Shown here: positions 707-48,366 of the stretch, piece after piece | How positions within the stretch are numbered: the stretch's first letter is position 1 | Layout: each line of letters opens with the position of its first letter | Source: Actinomycetota bacterium | GTDB taxonomy: Bacteria; Actinomycetota; Acidimicrobiia; Acidimicrobiales; Ilumatobacteraceae | Length of the DNA stretch: 49,798 nt | Assembly (NCBI GenBank): GCA_005778215.1 | Contig: SXKB01000091.1 | Span: 1-49,798 of the forward strand | Direction of reading: 5' to 3' | Notes under the pieces: model-generated | The model's input: only the letters and a program-made list of their open reading frames with translations | Database searches by the model: none | What the model was told of the DNA's origin: nothing | Translations under genes and position numbers: made by a program

Positions 707-807
707 CCGCGTCGTCCGTTCTGTGAGGCCCCGGCAGGAAGCACGGGTGCACAGCAACGCGGACGATGCGGGCACGCCGAGAACGGCGCGACCGAGTCGC
801 ACGTGTG

Positions 808-945
808 GCCCTGCTCCCATCCGGACTGTCACCGTCGGCCCCGGAGTTTCACCGGATCGGCCCCACCTCAGTCGTTCGAGCACGCCTGGAGTGGGGTTCG
901 CGGGCTTTCACCGCCGGTCGGGAATTGCACCCAACCCCGCAGGGG
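808..945 (-). ncRNA. FMN riboswitch (RFN element) upstream of ribE
   Basis: Reverse strand reads ATTCCCGACCGGCGGTGAAAGCCCGCGA ... GATCCGGTGAAACTCCGGGGCCGACGGTGACAGTCCGGATGGGAGCAGGG, matching conserved RFN segments. The closing P1 helix is CCCTGC (944-939) with GCAGGG (814-809). Confidence 0.95.
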
Positions 946-1017
946 GATTCAGTTGTAAATGGAACGGTAGCAACCAGCGGGCCGCACCGCGCCATCGAGC
1001 GTGCGGAACTGTGTCGG

Positions 1018-37891: not shown

Positions 37892-38392
37892 ATGCGTGCA
37901 CGGTGGTTCGGTTTCCCCAATCCGGTCAACGAGACCTCGGCCCGCCTCGTCGCGGCCGGTGTGGTGCTGCAAGGCGTCGTGTACCTCGCCGTGCAGCAGT
38001 GGTGGGTGCTCGTCCCGCTCGCCTACGGCTTCCTGGCCCGCGTGCTGGCCGGGCCGCGATTCAGCCCGCTCGGTCGGCTGGTCACCGAGATCATCACCCC
38101 GCGCCTCACGAGCGTGGAGCACAAGTTCGTCGCCGGGCCACCCAAGCGTTTCGCCCAGGGTGTCGGGCTCGCGTTCAGCGGTGGTGCTCTGGTGGCACTC
38201 GCGTTCGGTGCACCCACCGTGGCCACGGTGCTCATCGCCGGTCTCGTCGTCGCCGCCACGCTCGAGAGCGTGTTCGCGTTCTGCCTCGGCTGCGTGGTGT
38301 TCGGTCAGTTGATGAAGCTGGGTGTCGTGCCCGAGTCGGTGTGCCTCGAGTGCAGCGACATCAGCGGTCGCCTCGCTGCGGCCACCCACTGA
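37892..38392 (+). CDS. DUF4395 family membrane protein
   Basis: WFGFPNPVNETSARLVAAGVVLQGVVYLAVQQWWVLVPLAYGFLARVLAGPRFSPLGRL...FCLGCVVFGQLMKLGVVPESVCLECSDI. Confidence 0.88.
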   Translation: MRARWFGFPNPVNETSARLVAAGVVLQGVVYLAVQQWWVLVPLAYGFLARVLAGPRFSPLGRLVTEIITPRLTSVEHKFVAGPPKRFAQGVGLAFSGGALVALAFGAPTVATVLIAGLVVAATLESVFAFCLGCVVFGQLMKLGVVPESVCLECSDISGRLAAATH

Positions 38393-39710
38393 GGTCGGGC
38401 ACCAGCGGTCCGGCGTCGCGCTCCAGCGCCACGCCCCACCACACACCCGTGCCGTAGGCGGCCTCGTCGGCCCACTGCAGCGGCGCGTCGATCAACGGCT
38501 GTGGTGAGCGAGCGCGCATCGCGTCGGCCACCACGGGTCCCACGTACGCGGCCATCAGCGGCAGCCTTGCCCGCGGCACCACGACGGCGATGACGAGCGC
38601 GAGCGGCCACCACACGCGGGTGACACCCTTCGCGAGCTGTCGACCCGCGGCGAGATGGCCGCGCAGGGCCAACTGCACCGTGGCCTCCGCCGGCACATCG
38701 CGCAGTTTCCGCTGCAGGGCCGCGGCGGTGCCCCCGGCCAACGCGACCGCGAGCCACGGTCGGCGCAGGGCGAGCAGGGCCCACACTCCCAGGCTCCAGC
38801 CGCTCATCCGCACCGGCGCCAACGCGCCCGGGTGGCGCGTCGCGAGCGGTGCAGCGGAACGCCCGTAGCCCATCCGCTGCCGCAGCATCGCCGCCACCGA
38901 CGAGCGTGGCCGGTGGTGCACCACCGCAGCGGGTTCGTAGCGGCAGCGATGCCCGGCGTCGGCGAGTCGCCACACCAGATCGACGTCCTCGCCCACGCGC
39001 AGGTCGGTGTCGAACCCGCCGACCGATCGCAGCGCGTCGACCCGGCACACCAACACCGCGGCCGGCACGTAGCTGACGCGGGTGCCGGCCGCCACGCGCG
39101 CCGGCTCGTCACCCAGATCGAGCGGGCTGTGCCGGTGCTCGTACCCGGCGAGCAGGCCGGCATCCTCGGTGCCACGGACTCGCGGCGCGACCAGCGCGAC
39201 GCGCGGGTCGGCGAAATGGGGCAGCAGCGGCTGCAGCCACCCGTCGGGGAGTTCGACATCGGCATCGACGAAGGCGACCAGCGGCGTGGTGACGTGGTCG
39301 AGTCCGGCGTCGCGCGCCCCTGCGGGACCGAGGTTCACGTCGAGGCGCAGCAGGGTGGTGCCGGGCGGCGCAGTGATCGGCACGGGGCTGCCGTCGTCGA
39401 CCACGATGGTGCGCAGCGCGGACGGCGGCTCCGGTGTGACGCCCAGCACCGGCATCACCACCGTCACGTCGTCGGGCGTGAACGGCCCGTCGGCCGGCTC
39501 GGGGTGCAGCGCACCCGCGTCGACGAACCGGTCGAGCAACTGCTGCACGATCGCAGTGTCGGGGTGCTCGCCGCTCAGTGACGCGGCCAGCACGTGCGCG
39601 CCCCCGGCCGAGACGCGGAACAGTCGCAGCGGCGAACCGGCGATGACGACCCGCCCGTCGCCCGGCTGCTGCCACGACGAGTCGCGTCGGTAGCGGGTCA
39701 CTCCCACCAT
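38361..39710 (-). CDS. mftF: mycofactocin system glycosyltransferase
   Basis: YRRDSSWQQPGDGRVVIAGSPLRLFRVSAGG...VDDGSPVP...LVAFVDADVELPDGWLQPLLPHFADPRVALVAPRV...VGEDVDLVWRLADAGHRCRYEPAAVVHH; directly downstream of mftE. Confidence 0.88.
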   Translation of the reverse strand: MVGVTRYRRDSSWQQPGDGRVVIAGSPLRLFRVSAGGAHVLAASLSGEHPDTAIVQQLLDRFVDAGALHPEPADGPFTPDDVTVVMPVLGVTPEPPSALRTIVVDDGSPVPITAPPGTTLLRLDVNLGPAGARDAGLDHVTTPLVAFVDADVELPDGWLQPLLPHFADPRVALVAPRVRGTEDAGLLAGYEHRHSPLDLGDEPARVAAGTRVSYVPAAVLVCRVDALRSVGGFDTDLRVGEDVDLVWRLADAGHRCRYEPAAVVHHRPRSSVAAMLRQRMGYGRSAAPLATRHPGALAPVRMSGWSLGVWALLALRRPWLAVALAGGTAAALQRKLRDVPAEATVQLALRGHLAAGRQLAKGVTRVWWPLALVIAVVVPRARLPLMAAYVGPVVADAMRARSPQPLIDAPLQWADEAAYGTGVWWGVALERDAGPLVPDLSGWPQRGDR

Positions 39711-40381
39711 TCGTCGACCGCCGCGACGAGGTCGATGGTGAGCCGCGTGAGCATGGTGCGTCCCGCCGAGGCCGAGGCGCGCAGCGGATCGCCGAGCACA
39801 CCGTTGCGGCTGACGGCACGAACCCCGCCCTCGCGGATCTCGTCGATCACGTCGCCCAACGGGGCGGTGACACCCACCTCGGCGCGGTGCATGCGCACCA
39901 GATCGGGCGCGATGGCCAGCATCAACGACGTCTCGGTGTCGCCCGCATGTGCGTCGCCGCCGGCCACACGCGGCCACCACGAGAGCACCTTGCGCCCTTC
40001 GGCGTGCAGCAGTCGCACGGCGCGCTCGACCGGCACCCGGTTGCCGCCGTGTCCGTTCACCAGCACCACGCCCGAGCTCCAGTCGGCGCTGCGCACCAAC
40101 TCCACGATGACCTGCTCGAACACCTCGGTGCCCAACGACAACGTGCCGGGGAAGCCGGCGTGCTCGCCGCTGGCGCTGATGGTGAGCGGCGGCGTGACCA
40201 GGATCTCGCCCTCGTACTTGTCGGCCAGGTTCTCGGCGAGCGCGGCGGCGATGCGTGTGTCGGTGTCGAGCGGGAGGTGCGGGCCGTGTTGTTCGCACGC
40301 ACCGACCGGCACTGCGAGCAGCGCTCGGCGAGGTGCCTGGTGGTGCTCCGTCCAGGTGGTGCGGCCGAGGAAGCGCGTCAC
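39698..40381 (-). CDS. mftE: mycofactocin precursor peptide peptidase (creatininase family)
   Basis: VGACEQHGPHLPLDTDTRIAAALAENL...SASGEHAGFPGTLSLGTEV...VLVNGHGGNRVPVERAVRLLHAEGR...GGDAHAGDTETSLML...NGVLGDP. GTG start. Confidence 0.88.
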   Translation of the reverse strand: MTRFLGRTTWTEHHQAPRRALLAVPVGACEQHGPHLPLDTDTRIAAALAENLADKYEGEILVTPPLTISASGEHAGFPGTLSLGTEVFEQVIVELVRSADWSSGVVLVNGHGGNRVPVERAVRLLHAEGRKVLSWWPRVAGGDAHAGDTETSLMLAIAPDLVRMHRAEVGVTAPLGDVIDEIREGGVRAVSRNGVLGDPLRASASAGRTMLTRLTIDLVAAVDEWWE

Positions 40382-41979
40382 GACGGCAGCCCCAGGCAGT
40401 GGATGAACCCGCCACGCGTGCCCACGTAGATGCGGCCGTTCCACACCACCGGGGTGCTCTCGATGTTGCCCTCGAGGGTGACCTGCCACAGCTCGGTGGG
40501 CAGCACCCGCGGGTTGCTCACGTCGAACGCGTGGACGGTGCCGCTGCCGTCGGCCTGGATGAGCACACCGTCGACCAGCACCGGTGAGCTGAGCACCGGA
40601 GCGGCCACCTCGGTCTTCCACAGGATCTCGCCGGTGGTGCGATCGATGCCGTACACCTTGCCGGGCTTGGTGTTCCAGATGACCACGTCGCCGGTGACGA
40701 TGGGCGTGGCCCAGGTGCCACTGTCGACACCGTTGTTCACGTCGATGCTCCACACCACCGGGTCGGCCTCGTTGCGCGGATCGATCTTCAGCAACTGGCC
40801 CACTTCCTGCGCCCGACTGTTGTTGCGGTCGACCTCGGTGCCCACGAACAGGTAGCCCTGGTCGTCGGGCACCACGCTGGCATCGCTGTCGTCGCCGGTC
40901 CAGAAGCGGAACGTGCGGTTCACCTCACCGACGCCGGTGCGCAGCGACGAGATGTCCCATCCCTGCAAGAGGCCGCCCGACGAGTTGAGCCACGCCGTGT
41001 CGCCACTGACCGACACCGACGCCTCCAGGCTGACGCGCTTGGGGTCCTTCGCGCCCAGATCGGCGATGAGTTGTTGGTCCCAGCCCGGCACACGGAACAC
41101 CAACTTCGGATCGACGGTGACGGTGCCGTCGGCGGCGTACCCGCGGTTCAGGCGGATGCCGTGGAACCAGCTGTTCTCGCCGCCTTCGATGAGATGGTCG
41201 TTCAGCACCAGTGGCGCGGCGTCCCAGTCGTCGTTGTGCATGCGGTCGTCGGTGCGACCGTTGATCTTCCACAGCTCGCGCGGCTCGGCGCCGTCGAACG
41301 CGATGATGCGCAGGTAGTTGTCGCGCGACCCGGCGTAGACGAGCGGATAGCCGTCGGGGTCGATGGTGACGTTGCCCTTGGCGAGGTCGTCGGTGGCGAA
41401 CGGCGGGATGATGTCCTCGCCCGTCACGCCGTCGACGAAGTGGATCTTGTAGTCGTACGCGCCGAACACCACCCAGGTGCGGCCGTCGCGTTCGAACACC
41501 GCGGGTTGCCCGGTCCAACCCGTGCCGCACCACGTGCGCACGTTGCCGTACTCGCTGCTCTCACCGCACATCGGGTTGCCCTTGCCGGGGTACTGCCACA
41601 GCTCCTGCGGGACGGTGCGCGGCACCGGGCCCGTGCCGTAGAAGCTGCGCGTCGGGTTGCCGCGGAACGTGAGCACGCCGGGCACCTCCGCGCTGTACGG
41701 ACGGCCGAACGACGCCGGGTCGACCAGCACGTCGGTGCGCGGCACGAACGCCGCCGTGGTGGGCGCGGCGGTGGACTCGGGTGCGACCGAGGTGTCGCCG
41801 CCGGCGATGGGCGCAGCGCTGTCGGTGCCGCCCGCTGTGTCGGTGGCACCGGTGCCCGCAACCACGCTGGTGCTGCCCTCGTCGTTGCCACCGACCACCT
41901 CGTGCACGAGCCCGGCCAACACGCCGACGATGGCCACGGCGCCCACGAACACGGCACCACGGCGAGCGAAGTAGCTCAT
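40378..41979 (-). CDS. membrane-anchored PQQ-like beta-propeller repeat protein
   Basis: N-terminal TM anchor; repeated blades, e.g. DPVVWSIDVNNGVDSGTWATPIVTGDVVIWNTKPGKVYGIDRTTGEILWKTEVAAPVLSSPVLVDGVLIQADGSGTVHAFDV. Overlaps mftE by 4 nt. Confidence 0.85.
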   Translation of the reverse strand: MSYFARRGAVFVGAVAIVGVLAGLVHEVVGGNDEGSTSVVAGTGATDTAGGTDSAAPIAGGDTSVAPESTAAPTTAAFVPRTDVLVDPASFGRPYSAEVPGVLTFRGNPTRSFYGTGPVPRTVPQELWQYPGKGNPMCGESSEYGNVRTWCGTGWTGQPAVFERDGRTWVVFGAYDYKIHFVDGVTGEDIIPPFATDDLAKGNVTIDPDGYPLVYAGSRDNYLRIIAFDGAEPRELWKINGRTDDRMHNDDWDAAPLVLNDHLIEGGENSWFHGIRLNRGYAADGTVTVDPKLVFRVPGWDQQLIADLGAKDPKRVSLEASVSVSGDTAWLNSSGGLLQGWDISSLRTGVGEVNRTFRFWTGDDSDASVVPDDQGYLFVGTEVDRNNSRAQEVGQLLKIDPRNEADPVVWSIDVNNGVDSGTWATPIVTGDVVIWNTKPGKVYGIDRTTGEILWKTEVAAPVLSSPVLVDGVLIQADGSGTVHAFDVSNPRVLPTELWQVTLEGNIESTPVVWNGRIYVGTRGGFIHCLGLPS

Positions 41980-42596
41980 GCCGACAGACCCCGGGAGATG
42001 GCGGCGCAGCTGTCGCGGAACACGGCCTCCCAGTCGAGGGGGATGTGCCGCTTCTGCTTCAGTTCCAGGCTCACAGCGCCGTGGCAGGTGCTCCACACGA
42101 TGCCGGCGAGGTGCAACGGGTCGCCGGGTCGAAAGCGTCCGGCGGTGATGCACCGCTCGATGCGCTCGGCGAGGTGCTGCAGCGTGGCGAGCCCGCTCGC
42201 CGTCGCGGCGTCACTGGGTTCGTAGTCGGGCACCGCCTTCTCGAACATCACCGAGTACAGCGTGGGATGCTCGAACGCGAACGCCCGGTACCGCATGCCG
42301 CACATCGTGAGGTCGGCCACGGGGTCGTCGGTGACCGGCACCTCGGTCATCGTGGCGGCCAGGAGTCGGAACCCTTCGAGGAACAGGTGCTCCACCACGC
42401 CGTGCTTGCCGCCGAACCGTGAGTACACGTTCATCGTGCTCATGCCCGAGTCGCCGGCGATGCGCCGCACGGTGAGGGCGCCGGCCCCTTCGTCGGTGAG
42501 CAGTCGGCTCGCCGTGCGCAGCAGCGTACGGCCCACCTCGTCGAGGGGCGAGGTGCGCGCAGCGCCCACGGCGGGGGTGCTCTGCACAGGCGTCAC
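41976..42596 (-). CDS. TetR/AcrR family transcriptional regulator
   Basis: LLRTASRLLTDEGAGALTVRRIAGDSGMSTMNVYSRFGGKHGVVEHLFLEGF; C-terminal WSTCHGAVSLEL (WHG-like). ATGA overlap with the propeller gene; GTG start. Confidence 0.9.
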   Translation of the reverse strand: MTPVQSTPAVGAARTSPLDEVGRTLLRTASRLLTDEGAGALTVRRIAGDSGMSTMNVYSRFGGKHGVVEHLFLEGFRLLAATMTEVPVTDDPVADLTMCGMRYRAFAFEHPTLYSVMFEKAVPDYEPSDAATASGLATLQHLAERIERCITAGRFRPGDPLHLAGIVWSTCHGAVSLELKQKRHIPLDWEAVFRDSCAAISRGLSA

Positions 42597-42704: not shown

Positions 42705-44357
42705 ATGCACCAGGAGCCCACGGCGCGTCGCCTCGTTGCGCCGGCCACCACCCATGGTCCGCTGGCCGGCCGTTCCCCCTGGCTGGTGCTCGCGGTGCTG
42801 TGCACCACCGTGTTCATCATCGTGGTCGACGGCACCATCGTGAACGTCGCCCTGCCCACCTTCGTACGCGAACTCGGCGCCACCACCAGCCAACTGCAGT
42901 GGATCGTCGACGCCTACGTGCTGGTGTTCGCCGGCCTGCTGATGGCCGCCGGCAGCATCGGCGACCGCTATGGCCGCAAGGGTGTGCTGCTCCTCGGTCT
43001 GGTCGTGTTCGGCCTCACCTCGCTGGGGGCAGCGTTCGCCAGTACGGCGGGCGAGCTCATCGCCTGGCGAGCCGTCATGGGCGTCGGCGGTGCACTCATC
43101 TTCCCGGCGACCCTGGCGCTGCTCGTCAACGTGTTCACCAACCCGAAGCAGCGCGCCGTCGCCATCGCGGTGTGGGCTGCCACCAGCGGCCTCGCCGTCG
43201 CGCTCGGACCGGTCACCGGCGGGCTGCTGCTGCGCCACTTCTGGTGGGGTTCGGTGTTCCTGGTGAACGTCCCGGTCATCCTGCTCGCGATGGTGATGAT
43301 CGCCTGGATCGTTCCCACCTCGCGCGACACGACCGTGCACCGCTTCGACCCGCTCGGCGTGCTGCTGTCCATCGCCGGCATCGGCCTGCTGGTCTGGGCG
43401 GTCATCGAAGGGCCGCACCACGGCTGGCTCAGCGTCGACAGCGCACTCGCGTTCGGTGTCGCTGGCGCGCTGCTCGCCACGTTCGTGTGGTGGGAGCGGC
43501 GCATCGACCATCCGATGCTCGACGTCGGCGTGTTCACCAACATGCGGTTCACGGCCGGCAGCCTCAGCGTCACGTTCGCGTTCTTCGCACTGTTCGGCTT
43601 CATCTTCATGGTCACGCAGTACTTCCAGTTCGTGCGCGGCTACGACACGCTCGAAGCCGGGTTGCGCACCGTGCCCTTCGCGCTCTTCACCGGCATCGCG
43701 GCGCCCCTGTCGGCGAAGCTCGCCGCCCACACCGGCACCAAGGCGGTGGTGGCCGCGGGCCTCGCCTCGATGGCGGTGGGCTTCGCGTGGACCACGCGCC
43801 TCGACGTCGACTCCTCGTACTGGCTCATCGTCGGGCAGATGCTGTTCATGGGCGGCGGACTGGGTTTGGTGAACGCGCCGGCCACCGAAGCGATCATGGG
43901 GTCACTTCCGCCCGAGAAGGCCGGCGTCGGTTCGGCCGTGAACGACACCGCTCGAGAACTCGGCGGCACGTTGGGCGTGGCCATCGTCGGCTCGCTGTTC
44001 GCCTCCATCTACGCCGGTCGTCTCGGCGAGTTGCTCACCGGCACGCCGGTGCCCGACGATGCGCTCGCCATCGCGAAGCAGTCGGTGGGCGCCGGTGCCG
44101 CCGTGGCGGTGGCCGCCGGCGAACAGTTCGGTCCGCAGGCGCAGGAACTGGTGCAGGGCGCCGTGAACCAGTCGTTCATGGAGGGCTTCCACGCCGGCTC
44201 GTGGGTGTCGTCCGGTGTCGTAGCGCTCGGTGCGGTGCTCGCCTGGCGCTTCCTGCCCAGTCGTGGGCATCACCACGGCACCGACGCGGCGAACGGTCCG
44301 ACGCTCGTGGCATCGGACCGTCCGGTCGTGGCGTCGGCGATGGAGGTCAGCGGGTGA
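42705..44357 (+). CDS. MFS drug-type transporter (DHA2/EmrB-QacA family, 14 TM)
   Basis: WLVLAVLCTTVFIIVVDGTIVNVALPTFVRELGATTSQLQWIVDAYVLVFAGLLMAAGSIGDRYGRKGVLLLGL. Confidence 0.95.
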   Translation: MHQEPTARRLVAPATTHGPLAGRSPWLVLAVLCTTVFIIVVDGTIVNVALPTFVRELGATTSQLQWIVDAYVLVFAGLLMAAGSIGDRYGRKGVLLLGLVVFGLTSLGAAFASTAGELIAWRAVMGVGGALIFPATLALLVNVFTNPKQRAVAIAVWAATSGLAVALGPVTGGLLLRHFWWGSVFLVNVPVILLAMVMIAWIVPTSRDTTVHRFDPLGVLLSIAGIGLLVWAVIEGPHHGWLSVDSALAFGVAGALLATFVWWERRIDHPMLDVGVFTNMRFTAGSLSVTFAFFALFGFIFMVTQYFQFVRGYDTLEAGLRTVPFALFTGIAAPLSAKLAAHTGTKAVVAAGLASMAVGFAWTTRLDVDSSYWLIVGQMLFMGGGLGLVNAPATEAIMGSLPPEKAGVGSAVNDTARELGGTLGVAIVGSLFASIYAGRLGELLTGTPVPDDALAIAKQSVGAGAAVAVAAGEQFGPQAQELVQGAVNQSFMEGFHAGSWVSSGVVALGAVLAWRFLPSRGHHHGTDAANGPTLVASDRPVVASAMEVSG

Positions 44358-44697
44358 CGGTCTTGCCCACCAGTTGACGGTGCTGGATCGTCGCCTGTGC
44401 GATCACCTTCGAGGTGCCGTTGCGGCACTCCATCCGGGTCTGGGTGCCCGACGGCACCTGCACGTTGCAGTTCCAGCCGGTGTTGAGTGCCGTGCCGGTG
44501 ATGGTGACGACGTTGGCCGCACCGACCGTGACGGTGTAGCTGCCGGCGGCGCCGGCCGAGCAGACGCCGTTGGCGTCACACGGGGTGATCGACGTCGTGC
44601 CGTTGCCGCTCGCGGCAAAGACGCCGCTGGCGAGACCGGTGACGCCGATGATGCTGGCGGCGGCGATGAGGGCTGCGGTGAGCGGATTGCGCTGCAT
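44347..44697 (-). CDS. small secreted hypothetical protein
   Basis: MQRNPLTAALIAAASIIGVTGLASGVFAASG signal peptide; 116 aa with 4 Cys; GAGGTGG Shine-Dalgarno. Convergently overlaps the MFS gene by 11 bp. Confidence 0.75.
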   Translation of the reverse strand: MQRNPLTAALIAAASIIGVTGLASGVFAASGNGTTSITPCDANGVCSAGAAGSYTVTVGAANVVTITGTALNTGWNCNVQVPSGTQTRMECRNGTSKVIAQATIQHRQLVGKTVTR

Positions 44698-45013: not shown

Positions 45014-45811
45014 TCAGCCGTGAGGGAGGTAGCCCCAGTCGGTGAGCACCTGCACGATGCGAGCCGCCGCGTCGGCGGGTTCGAGGGTGACCATCTCCCC
45101 ACGCGCGGCTGATGCCGCTGCCGCGTCGGTGAGCAGCCGCAGCCGGTCGAGCGGCGAGTCGCCCGCCGGTGCCGGCAGTTCGCGGGCACGGGGCCGGTAG
45201 GGCCGCACCATGAACTCGGCTCGGTGGATGGGGGTGGTGGCAGGCACCACCTCGATCACCGTGTCCGCTGCGGTGCGCAGTGACTGCAGGCCGGCGCGAC
45301 GCAGACGGGCCGTCGCACCCTCCACCGACACCACGGCGGGCGAGCGCACGCCGAGCAGTTCGCGGCGGCCGCCGTCGAGACGACGCGTGGCGCGTACGCC
45401 ATCGGCCTCGAGATCGACGTGGATGACACCGAGCGCCTGCTCGGCCCCGAGGTGCGCGGCGATGAAGGCCGGCACGCTGCCGGCACCACGGTCGAGCGAG
45501 TAGTCGCCACACCACACCCACTCGGCGTCGGCGATGTGATCGGCGATCGCGGTGGCCACGTCGGTACCGGCGGCGGTGGTGGGCGCTTCGATGCGGATGG
45601 CACGCGTCGCGCCGCACGCCAGTGCGTCGCGCAACACCTTGTCGGCACCCGACGGGCCGACCGTGATGGCAGTGACGCCGGTGCCGAGCAGCGCGGCCTG
45701 CCGCAGCGCGAACTCCAACGCCGACTGGTCGGCGGGCGACATGCCGGCGAAACGTTCGTCGTGCGGCTCGCCGGGATGGCTCACCCACTTCAGACAGGCG
45801 ACGATGCTCAT
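45014..45811 (-). CDS. electron transfer flavoprotein beta subunit (mycofactocin-neighbourhood type)
   Basis: MSIVACLKWVSHPGEPHDERFAGMSPADQSALEFALRQAALLGTGVTAITVGPSGADKVLRDALACGATRAIRI...GAGSVPAFIAAHLG. Confidence 0.87.
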   Translation of the reverse strand: MSIVACLKWVSHPGEPHDERFAGMSPADQSALEFALRQAALLGTGVTAITVGPSGADKVLRDALACGATRAIRIEAPTTAAGTDVATAIADHIADAEWVWCGDYSLDRGAGSVPAFIAAHLGAEQALGVIHVDLEADGVRATRRLDGGRRELLGVRSPAVVSVEGATARLRRAGLQSLRTAADTVIEVVPATTPIHRAEFMVRPYRPRARELPAPAGDSPLDRLRLLTDAAAASAARGEMVTLEPADAAARIVQVLTDWGYLPHG

Positions 45812-45818
45812 GCGTGCC

Positions 45819-46109
45819 TCACGTGCGCCGGAAGACGACGCCGTGGCCGCCCTCGGGGTAGTGCCAGCTGATCGCGCCCTCGCGGTTGCACACGATGTAG
45901 CAGGTGCCGCACTCGAAGCACTGCTCGTAGTTGAACACGATGCCGCCGTCGCTGGTGGGCACGAACAGGTTGGCCGGGCAGGCGATGACGCACTCGCGCG
46001 TGCTGCAGTCGGCACACACCTTGCCGTCCACCACGATGTGGGCCTGGTGGTGCACACGGAACTCTGCGGTGTCCATGCGTTCCTGGAACGAGATGATGTG
46101 ATCGTTCAT
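45819..46109 (-). CDS. FixX-like ferredoxin
   Basis: CADCSTRECVIACPANLFVPTSDGGIVFNYEQCFECGTCYIVCNREGAISWHYPEGGHGV; FixX-type Cys pattern. Confidence 0.92.
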   Translation of the reverse strand: MNDHIISFQERMDTAEFRVHHQAHIVVDGKVCADCSTRECVIACPANLFVPTSDGGIVFNYEQCFECGTCYIVCNREGAISWHYPEGGHGVVFRRT

Positions 46110-47413
46110 CCGAAGCTCCTGAAGCCGGTCCAGCCGTCGCGCAACAGGTCGCGGCGTCGCACGCCGGCCTTCCTGCGTTCCTGATCGAGAATGCGTCGTA
46201 CGCCCGGCTTGGGGTTCGGGTTGTCGACGTGGAACATCCGCTCGACCACGTTCGCCACCATGGTGGGATAGAGGTGCTGCACTCGGTCGCTCAGCACCAA
46301 CTCGGGTGCACGACGCAGCTTGCGGTGGTCCTTCAACACGAACGTGTCGCTGAGGCGGCGCTGATAGCCGGCCAATCCGGTGGCGCTGGTGTCGCCCTTC
46401 TGCACCGCTTCCACCGCGGCCTCGGCGGCGTACATGCCACTGGCCATCGCGAAGTTCACACCTTCCAGCCAGATGCCGGCTGCCAGGCACAGCGCAGCGG
46501 CGTCGCCGGCCACCAGCATCCCGGGCATGGTCATCTTCGGCATCATCGTGAGACCGGCCTCGGGGATGAGGTGCGCGCTGTACTCCTTCAGCTCCGCACC
46601 CTGCACCAGCGGGGCGATGGCCGGGTGCTGCTTCAGCCCAGCGATGATCTGCTCGGGCCGCTGCTGCTGTGCCGCCAGCTTCGGCAGCTTCAGCACCACG
46701 CCCACGGCCAACGTGTCGAGCCCCGTGTACAGGAACCCGCCACCGTTCACCTTGCCGGTGCCACCGAGGATCTCGATGTCGACGCCGTGGCGCTCGCGCA
46801 CGGCGAAGCGTTCGTCGATCACTTCCTTCGGCAGGGCCAGCGTCTCCTTCACACCGAGCGTGAAGTGCTTCGCGTCGGTGTGCTCGTAGAGGCCGGCCTC
46901 CTTGGCGAGGAAGCTGTTCACGCCATCGCAGGCGATGACGACGCGCGCAGTGAGATCGCCGTCGGGGCGGTCGGTGCGTACGCCGGTGACGGCACCGCCG
47001 GCATCGCGCAGCAACCCCACCACGGTGGTGTCGGTGAGCAGTTGAGCGCCGGCGGCCTCCGCGTGCGATGCCAGCCAGTGGTCCCAGTCGGGGCGGAACG
47101 CAGTGGCGCCGTTGTACGGCGGCTGCCCCCATGCCTCGCTGCGGAAGTCGACCGTGAGCGCCTGTGTGTCGGTGAGCAGCATCGTGCTGCGGCGCGTGAC
47201 CCACCGCTGGATCGGCGCTTCCTCCCACCAGTTCGGGATGAGGCCGTCGAGGATGCGCGGGTACACCACGCCGCCGTACATGTTCTTGCTGCCGGGGAAC
47301 GGACCGCGCTCGAGCAGCACCACGCTGAGACCGGCACGCGCCGCGACGATGGCCGCGCACGAACCGGCCGGGCCCGCGCCCACCACGACGACGTCGACGT
47401 CGGGTGTGCTCAT
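46106..47413 (-). CDS. FixC-like FAD-dependent oxidoreductase (ETF-quinone oxidoreductase family)
   Basis: VDVVVVGAGPAGSCAAIVAARAGLSVVLLERGPFPGSKNMYGGVVYPRILDGLIPNWWEEAPIQRWVTRRS; ATGA overlaps with its neighbours. Confidence 0.93.
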   Translation of the reverse strand: MSTPDVDVVVVGAGPAGSCAAIVAARAGLSVVLLERGPFPGSKNMYGGVVYPRILDGLIPNWWEEAPIQRWVTRRSTMLLTDTQALTVDFRSEAWGQPPYNGATAFRPDWDHWLASHAEAAGAQLLTDTTVVGLLRDAGGAVTGVRTDRPDGDLTARVVIACDGVNSFLAKEAGLYEHTDAKHFTLGVKETLALPKEVIDERFAVRERHGVDIEILGGTGKVNGGGFLYTGLDTLAVGVVLKLPKLAAQQQRPEQIIAGLKQHPAIAPLVQGAELKEYSAHLIPEAGLTMMPKMTMPGMLVAGDAAALCLAAGIWLEGVNFAMASGMYAAEAAVEAVQKGDTSATGLAGYQRRLSDTFVLKDHRKLRRAPELVLSDRVQHLYPTMVANVVERMFHVDNPNPKPGVRRILDQERRKAGVRRRDLLRDGWTGFRSFG

Positions 47414-48366
47414 GCCATCCCCGGGTCGGTGGTGGTGGTGTTCCCGCCGAGCAGTCGCACCAGATGGTCGAGCGTCTCGTTCGCATCGGCCACGATGGCC
47501 AGGTCGGCCAACTGCATCATCGGGCAGTGGCCGTCGACGTTCACGCTCACGATGTGGGCGGGGTCGCCCAGGCCGCTGGTGTGCTGAACAGCACCGCTCA
47601 CGCCGAACGCCAGGTACAGGTCTGGATCGACCACCACGCCGGTGGTGCCGATCTGCCGCTCGTGGGGCACCCAGCCGCGATCGGTGATGACACGGGTGGC
47701 TCCCATGCTGGCGCCGATGGCCGCGCCGATCTGCACGAGTTGCTCCATGCGTGCCGGACCGTCGAGGCCGGCGCCGCCACCGACGATGCGTGGCGCCTCG
47801 GCCAGGTCGATGGTGGCCGGGTCGGGCGGCAGCACGGCCAGCACCGTCGCGTCGCGGTGCTCCTGCCGCGGCAGGTGCGTGGGTGTCGCATCGGTGATCT
47901 CGGGGGCCGCGGCATCGGCGCGCACGGCGACACCGCGCACGCCCGGCTGCAAGGTGGCCACGAAGTCGGGTCCCGGGTGCGTCTGATGGATCTCGGTGCC
48001 GCCGCGGCGGGTGAGTTCGACACGATCGGTGGTGATGCTCAGCGCGCCGGCGTACAGCGGGCGGTGCAGCAACGCCGCAATGCGCGGTGCCAGGTCGCGC
48101 CCGTCGGGCGAGCCCGGCAGCACCACGGCCGGCTCGTGCTGCAGCAAGGGCGCGAGCACCGCCGCCCACGCACCTGGCTGGAAGGTGGGCATCTCGACGA
48201 TCGTGACGTGATGGGCGACGCCGCTGAGGTCGGCGGCTGCGGCCGCCGTGCCCGAGCCGATGAGCACGGCGCGGCCACCGCACTCGGCCACGGTCTCGTC
48301 GCCGCCCGACGGGAGTTGCCCGTCGCGCACGGCCACCACCGCGATCATCGGCCCCACAGCAGTCAT
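47410..48366 (-). CDS. electron transfer flavoprotein alpha subunit
   Basis: C-terminal FAD domain: RIVGGGAGLDGPARMEQLVQIGAAIGASMGATRVITDRGWVPHERQIGTTGVVVDPDLYLAFGVSGAVQHTSGLGDPAHIVSVN. Confidence 0.9.
   Translation of the reverse strand: MTAVGPMIAVVAVRDGQLPSGGDETVAECGGRAVLIGSGTAAAAADLSGVAHHVTIVEMPTFQPGAWAAVLAPLLQHEPAVVLPGSPDGRDLAPRIAALLHRPLYAGALSITTDRVELTRRGGTEIHQTHPGPDFVATLQPGVRGVAVRADAAAPEITDATPTHLPRQEHRDATVLAVLPPDPATIDLAEAPRIVGGGAGLDGPARMEQLVQIGAAIGASMGATRVITDRGWVPHERQIGTTGVVVDPDLYLAFGVSGAVQHTSGLGDPAHIVSVNVDGHCPMMQLADLAIVADANETLDHLVRLLGGNTTTTDPGMA

Follow-up and report, generated by a model that had tools for sequence, protein, structure and literature searches.

Mycobacteria carry their mycofactocin genes in the arrangement mftRABCDEFG. 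In M. smegmatis, MftD carries out the oxidative deamination of AHDP to premycofactocin, and deletion of mftD led to the loss of PMFT and the accumulation of AHDP (PMC7491314); the MftD step has been termed aerobic (PMC8406134). Clusters without mftD are already known from Saccharopolyspora, where an OYE of family TIGR03997 is present and where evidence points to continued production of the cofactor, S. erythraea being reported to produce methylated mycofactocin (BGCFlow study, PMC11162802, in the excerpts used here). The same excerpts are confined to one genus and discuss no ETF/Fix genes, cross-family reciprocity or electron path. Mycofactocin names for ETF and OYE families are likewise established in NCBIfam (NF038209, mft_etfA; TIGR04503, mft_etfB; TIGR03996 and TIGR03997, mycofactocin-system OYE 1 and 2). 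These entries record association only, FixC and FixX have no mycofactocin-specific name, and we found no stated link between the entries and the absence of MftD.

A mycofactocin cluster in two loci

We examined a stretch of 49,798 nucleotides (the window) from assembly G000 (3.5 Mb, 75% complete, 356 contigs). A first-pass annotation had described minus-strand genes for TetR, a propeller, mftE and mftF, and these proved genuine and correctly placed. The features of the region are as follows.

38361..39710, minus strand: mftF, mycofactocin glycosyltransferase (TIGR03965, 371 bits, cut-off 280)
39698..40384, minus strand: mftE, mycofactocin peptidase, start GTG at 40384 or 40381 (TIGR03964, 273 bits, cut-off 172)
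40378..41979, minus strand: PQQ-like (BamB-like) beta-propeller, secreted and membrane-anchored; inserted gene, not mycofactocin-associated (PF13360, 47.9 bits, cut-off 27.6)
41976..42596, minus strand: TetR regulator (not MftR), inserted gene, divergently paired with the MFS pump (PF00440, PF13305)
42705..44357, plus strand: DHA2-family MFS efflux pump, inserted gene (TIGR00711, 265 bits, cut-off 230)
45014..45811, minus strand: fixA / mft_etfB, mycofactocin-associated ETF beta subunit (TIGR04503, 218.8 bits, cut-off 200)
45819..46109, minus strand: fixX, ferredoxin-like protein (best NCBIfam match FixX NF011993, below cut-off)
46106..47413, minus strand: fixC, ETF:quinone oxidoreductase-like flavoprotein (closest solved chain 7koe_C, E 2.7e-73)
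47410..48366, minus strand: fixB / mft_etfA, mycofactocin-associated ETF alpha subunit (NF038209, 383 bits, cut-off 240)

The overlaps reported earlier were recovered, namely 4 nt (ATGA) between TetR and propeller and 13 nt between mftE and mftF; that between propeller and mftE is 4 nt, provided that mftE starts at the GTG at 40381. MftE and MftF both score above their curated cut-offs, as expected of members of the mycofactocin system. The fixB-fixC-fixX-fixA block lies upstream of the inserted genes and outside the region first described; both this block and the absence of mftD had been overlooked. There are 4-nt overlaps at fixB/fixC and fixC/fixX, FixB and FixA belong by cut-off to the two mycofactocin-associated ETF families, and fixX orthologues are tied to MftC+ genomes. 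Four adjacent subunits are present, as in the FixABCX / EtfABCX of Thermotoga maritima (7koe). The ORF at 45819-47486 could be mistaken for the ETF-QO gene, but it overlaps fixC as a shadow frame and takes in fixX at its end, fixC itself being 47413..46106; because this ORF was used in the Fix census described below, the census was checked gene by gene in ~30 loci.

None of mftA, mftB and mftC is in the window, as had been said, and a genome-wide search placed all three on contig C356 of the same assembly, above cut-off (MftA, TIGR03969, 48.7 bits; MftB, TIGR03967, 90.3; MftC, TIGR03962, 618.8). The mftA gene, whose precursor product has the C-terminal end EEISIDGMCGVY and closes on IDGMCGVY, and mftB precede mftC; their neighbours are two NDMA-dependent alcohol dehydrogenases (TIGR03989), PlsY, a deazaflavin-dependent nitroreductase and the mycofactocin FadH/OYE oxidoreductase 1 (OYE1), a member by cut-off of the mycofactocin-system OYE families. 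MftD (TIGR03966) had zero matches above cut-off in G000 and in its relatives G102 (99% complete) and G232 (97% complete). In this genus the cluster stands in two loci, mftA-mftB-mftC-plsY-OYE1 and fixB-fixC-fixX-fixA-mftE-mftF, and the window holds half of an mftD-less type of mycofactocin cluster. In comparison with mycobacterial mftRABCDEFG, the genome has the same mftA, B, C, E and F above curated cut-offs; it differs in being without mftD, in that no mftR was found, in having OYE1 and fixBCXA instead, and in being divided between two loci with insertions between fixA and mftE. The first interpretation thus held for genuine mftE and mftF genes with the core genes elsewhere in the genome, but not for the propeller as a mycofactocin partner or for the TetR gene as mftR.

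Reciprocal occurrence of MftD and the Fix module

Among 116 MftC+ Acidimicrobiales genomes, 69 had MftD only, 39 had Fix only, 2 had both and 6 had neither. Fix was therefore present in 39/45 MftD-minus versus 2/71 MftD-plus genomes (p = 5e-22, a value that overstates independence because the genomes are related). Of the doubles, G069 carries a pair of mft clusters, one of them with mftD, and G203 is 6% contaminated; at least 2 of the six genomes with neither are at contig ends. Outside these 41 MftC+ genomes Fix was found once, in G103, a genome that has MftE. OYE1 followed the same distribution (39/45 MftD-minus versus 2/35 MftD-plus, the latter being the two doubles). Within the window's family, 5 genomes lack MftD, the same 5 that have Fix beside mftE, and the 7 with MftD have no Fix; eleven families contain both kinds. 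An MftC tree was built from 52 rows, drawn from MftD-only and Fix-only genomes together with two of G069, and on it the MftD/Fix label changes about 14 times (bootstrap range 13-15); well-supported branches force at least 7 of these changes. The tree demonstrates repeated switching, not reciprocity itself.

A scan with FixC extended the cassette beyond the order. Read gene by gene, it runs mftA-mftB-mftC-OYE1-OYE2-fixB-fixC-fixX-fixA, then mftF and mftE, in Kutzneria, Streptomyces, Saccharopolyspora, Labedaea and Amycolatopsis; a related gene set is present in a Desulfuromonadales MAG, and Streptomyces plasmids annotated by RefSeq contain the cassette with the ETF genes already named. FixC relatives at ~59% identity or more were in cassette loci in every case where the flank extended far enough to judge, and those at 41% or less were generic. 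MftD above cut-off was absent in 16/17 named or MAG cassette carriers, the exception being Saccharopolyspora aridisoli with both. The MftD set and the OYE/Fix set appear from these gene distributions to replace each other across many bacteria. The Fix module differs from that of Thermotoga in being dedicated to mycofactocin genomes.

A proposed route to premycofactocin without MftD

A genome with MftC, MftE and MftF but without MftD must oxidise AHDP by some other enzyme, and the set that appears reciprocally to MftD is OYE-Fix. We propose that the OYE1(/OYE2)-FixABCX set does MftD's job, in a split cluster that also received insertions at fixA/mftE, and we lean modestly toward this reading over its competitors taken together. 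AHDP would be made by MftC and MftE as usual; a flavoenzyme of the FadH/OYE family with FMN, 4Fe-4S and FAD would oxidise the AHDP amine to the alpha-keto amide (premycofactocin); and electrons would pass from OYE to the mycofactocin-specific ETF (FixA/FixB), on to FixC/FixX and into the menaquinone pool, which would replace O2 as acceptor.

OYE1 and OYE2 have an FMN barrel, a 4Fe-4S motif and a FAD domain, and they belong to the multidomain flavoprotein superfamily that includes the ETF-linked histamine and trimethylamine dehydrogenases; entry 1o94 contains trimethylamine dehydrogenase plus an ETF chain, and ETF is the acceptor proposed here for OYE. Behind the FMN barrel both have the cysteine motif for a 4Fe-4S cluster (CIRCNQTC and CLSCNQEC stretches). 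The FMN-binding cysteine of the histamine-dehydrogenase motif VPHCNG is not conserved, the aligned residue being non-Cys in OYE2 and OYE1 reading GPHVTNL at that stretch. Both proteins resemble FadH and other ene-reductases more closely than they do the amine dehydrogenases. This position and the missing FMN-linking cysteine were counted against replacement of MftD, as were S. aridisoli with its cassette plus MftD, the six MftC+ genomes with neither set, and the window genus, where OYE1 is present and no OYE2-like match was found.

The broader idea, that mycofactocin is finished by two unrelated and interchangeable routes, either the O2-using MftD or an O2-independent OYE1/2-FixABCX-quinone path, we judge to be evenly balanced between true and false. 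If true, the OYE-ETF-quinone route would couple maturation of the cofactor to respiration and open mycofactocin synthesis to anaerobes; the replacement of MftD would explain completion of mycofactocin without this enzyme, including in the anaerobe-type Desulfuromonadales MAG, and would assign a function to four gene families so far known by association only. Genome-mining rules that require mftD miss or misname such clusters, as the excerpted Saccharopolyspora study reports (PMC11162802). A full-text literature search that paired mycofactocin with electron transfer flavoprotein returned no paper, most subscription journals being outside its coverage; novelty can therefore be claimed for the reciprocity, for the part of FixCX and for the electron path only as far as could be checked.

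OYE-FixABCX could instead use or regenerate the cofactor, oxidising mycofactocinol (MFTH2), feeding the quinone pool and substituting for MftG. ETF:quinone modules classically reoxidise reduced carriers, MftG is missing from about 25% of MftC genomes with its substitute an open question (PMC11778925), and true MftG is nearly absent in the order (above cut-off, TIGR03970 in 1/80 and TIGR04542 in 0/80). The reciprocity, however, involves MftD and not MftG, and regeneration would leave AHDP oxidation in MftD-minus genomes without an enzyme. MftD-plus genomes of the same order that lack MftG also manage without Fix, so that reoxidation does not in general require Fix; for this reason the regeneration role is less favoured, and we consider it unlikely, although to be taken seriously. 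MftG as the replaced gene was itself uninformative, TIGR04542 and TIGR03970 being nearly absent in both classes.

It is a good deal less probable that the end product of MftD-minus genomes is a different one, formed without oxidative deamination, with OYE and Fix acting on something else: S. erythraea, of a genus without mftD, is reported to make methylated mycofactocin (PMC11162802, excerpts as above), and the MftA C-termini are identical (IDGMCGVY).

Insertions between fixA and mftE

The genes between fixA and mftE can be accounted for by comparing the three related genomes, whose flanks are syntenic (fixBCXA on one side; DUF4395, alanine-racemase-like and DUF418 genes on the other). In G232, of the same genus, fixA-mftE-mftF are directly adjacent with no gene between; in the sister species G102 the propeller separates fixA from mftE and the TetR/MFS pair is absent; in the window both the propeller and the TetR/MFS pair are present. 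Propeller and TetR are recent insertions unrelated to mycofactocin. The fixA/mftE junction would have been broken first by the propeller, shared with one sister species, and then by the TetR/efflux-pump pair, or this pair may have been lost in G102 rather than gained in the window species. The split and the inserted propeller could be errors of assembly or binning in a fragmented MAG, as the completeness and contig number of G000 might suggest, but this is very improbable, since the same split is found on long contigs in G102 and G232 and the propeller-mftE junction recurs in G102.

The TetR gene had been taken as the mftR of the canonical order. It gave no match to the MftR model TIGR03968 at E <= 1e-3, stands back to back with the DHA2 pump, and is absent from this position in G102 and G232; from the three-genome comparison it belongs with the pump. 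No inverted repeat that might serve as a TetR operator was found between 42560 and 42740. As a consequence of the TetR/MFS insertion, mftE-mftF are probably now on the TetR promoter, a change that we propose to be a side effect of the insertion, and the propeller is probably cotranscribed with them in the window.

The propeller (533 aa) has an N-terminal helix at 6-29, in keeping with the membrane anchor noted at first, followed by a disordered linker and the beta-propeller (AF2 mean pLDDT 82). Its scores stay far under the profile cut-offs of PQQ-dependent alcohol dehydrogenase (TIGR03075, 45.6 versus cut-off 480 bits) and BamB (TIGR03300, 49 versus cut-off 285 bits), the likeness to BamB being in fold only; Foldseek matched BamB, YxaL and tetrathionate hydrolase (TM about 0.4-0.55). 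No plasmid homologue spanning the entire propeller was found. In a census of 298 Acidimicrobiales genomes (orthologue at E <= 1e-80), 122 had the propeller and 116 had MftC, and the two occurred together in 48, against a chance expectation of 47.5 (odds ratio 1.03, p = 0.90). MftC was absent from 74/122 propeller genomes; the propeller thus lies mostly outside mycofactocin-positive genomes, an outcome that the first-pass annotation had named beforehand as refuting its suggestion that the propeller is a membrane partner that depends on or senses mycofactocin and shares a transcript with mftE-mftF. Although the position, the 4-nt overlaps and the adjacency to mftE kept in G102 speak for such a partner, the lack of association with MftC, the unrelated neighbourhoods elsewhere and the absence of the propeller at the locus in sister G232 make it scarcely credible here and refute it for the propeller family as a whole. 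The propeller drops out of the mycofactocin story: among the 48 genomes with both, it adjoins mft genes in G000 and G102 only, and in other genomes it lies near release factor RF3, beta-lactamase-like and other unrelated genes.

Cassette variants

OYE1, a flavoenzyme of the FadH/OYE family, was present in the genome carrying the window and in its two relatives of the same genus (G102 and G232), and the OYE search of these three genomes gave no OYE2-like second match; most Fix-type genomes differed in having one. Two mycofactocin clusters were found in G069, one with mftD and one without; a separate OYE-OYE-fixBCXA block was also present there (loci L098, L099 and L097 in all). The complete mft-OYE-fix cassette was seen on two Streptomyces plasmids (L191 and L192), followed in both by a common block that encodes an FAD monooxygenase, an AMP-binding protein, a type III PLP enzyme and a cobalamin-dependent protein; polyketide- or aromatase-type biosynthetic genes lie around it. 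Neither MftD nor Fix was found in MftC-positive G077, G239, G143 and G280, some of these cases being on short contigs; possibly these genomes use a third route.

MftC and its neighbours

In many genomes of the window's family, MftD-type and Fix-type alike, mftC was adjoined by a PlsY-like acyltransferase gene:

L004 8703-9284, PlsY-like acyltransferase gene (likewise in L061, L065, L066, L068, L069 and L070)

In the MftC tree, the protein of L111, a record titled Bifidobacterium breve, clustered with the window's family, and that label looks wrong.

Propeller cysteines and other window features

Two cysteines (GDC and GGC/GSC stretches) were conserved in nearly all other propeller orthologues, and both were gone from the two mft-adjacent propellers (window 40378-41979 and L057 7574-9151). 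The window also holds:

805-948 (-), FMN riboswitch (100.6 bits vs a gathering score of 66.2)
44347-44697 (-), predicted small secreted protein of 116 aa, between the MFS pump gene and fixA
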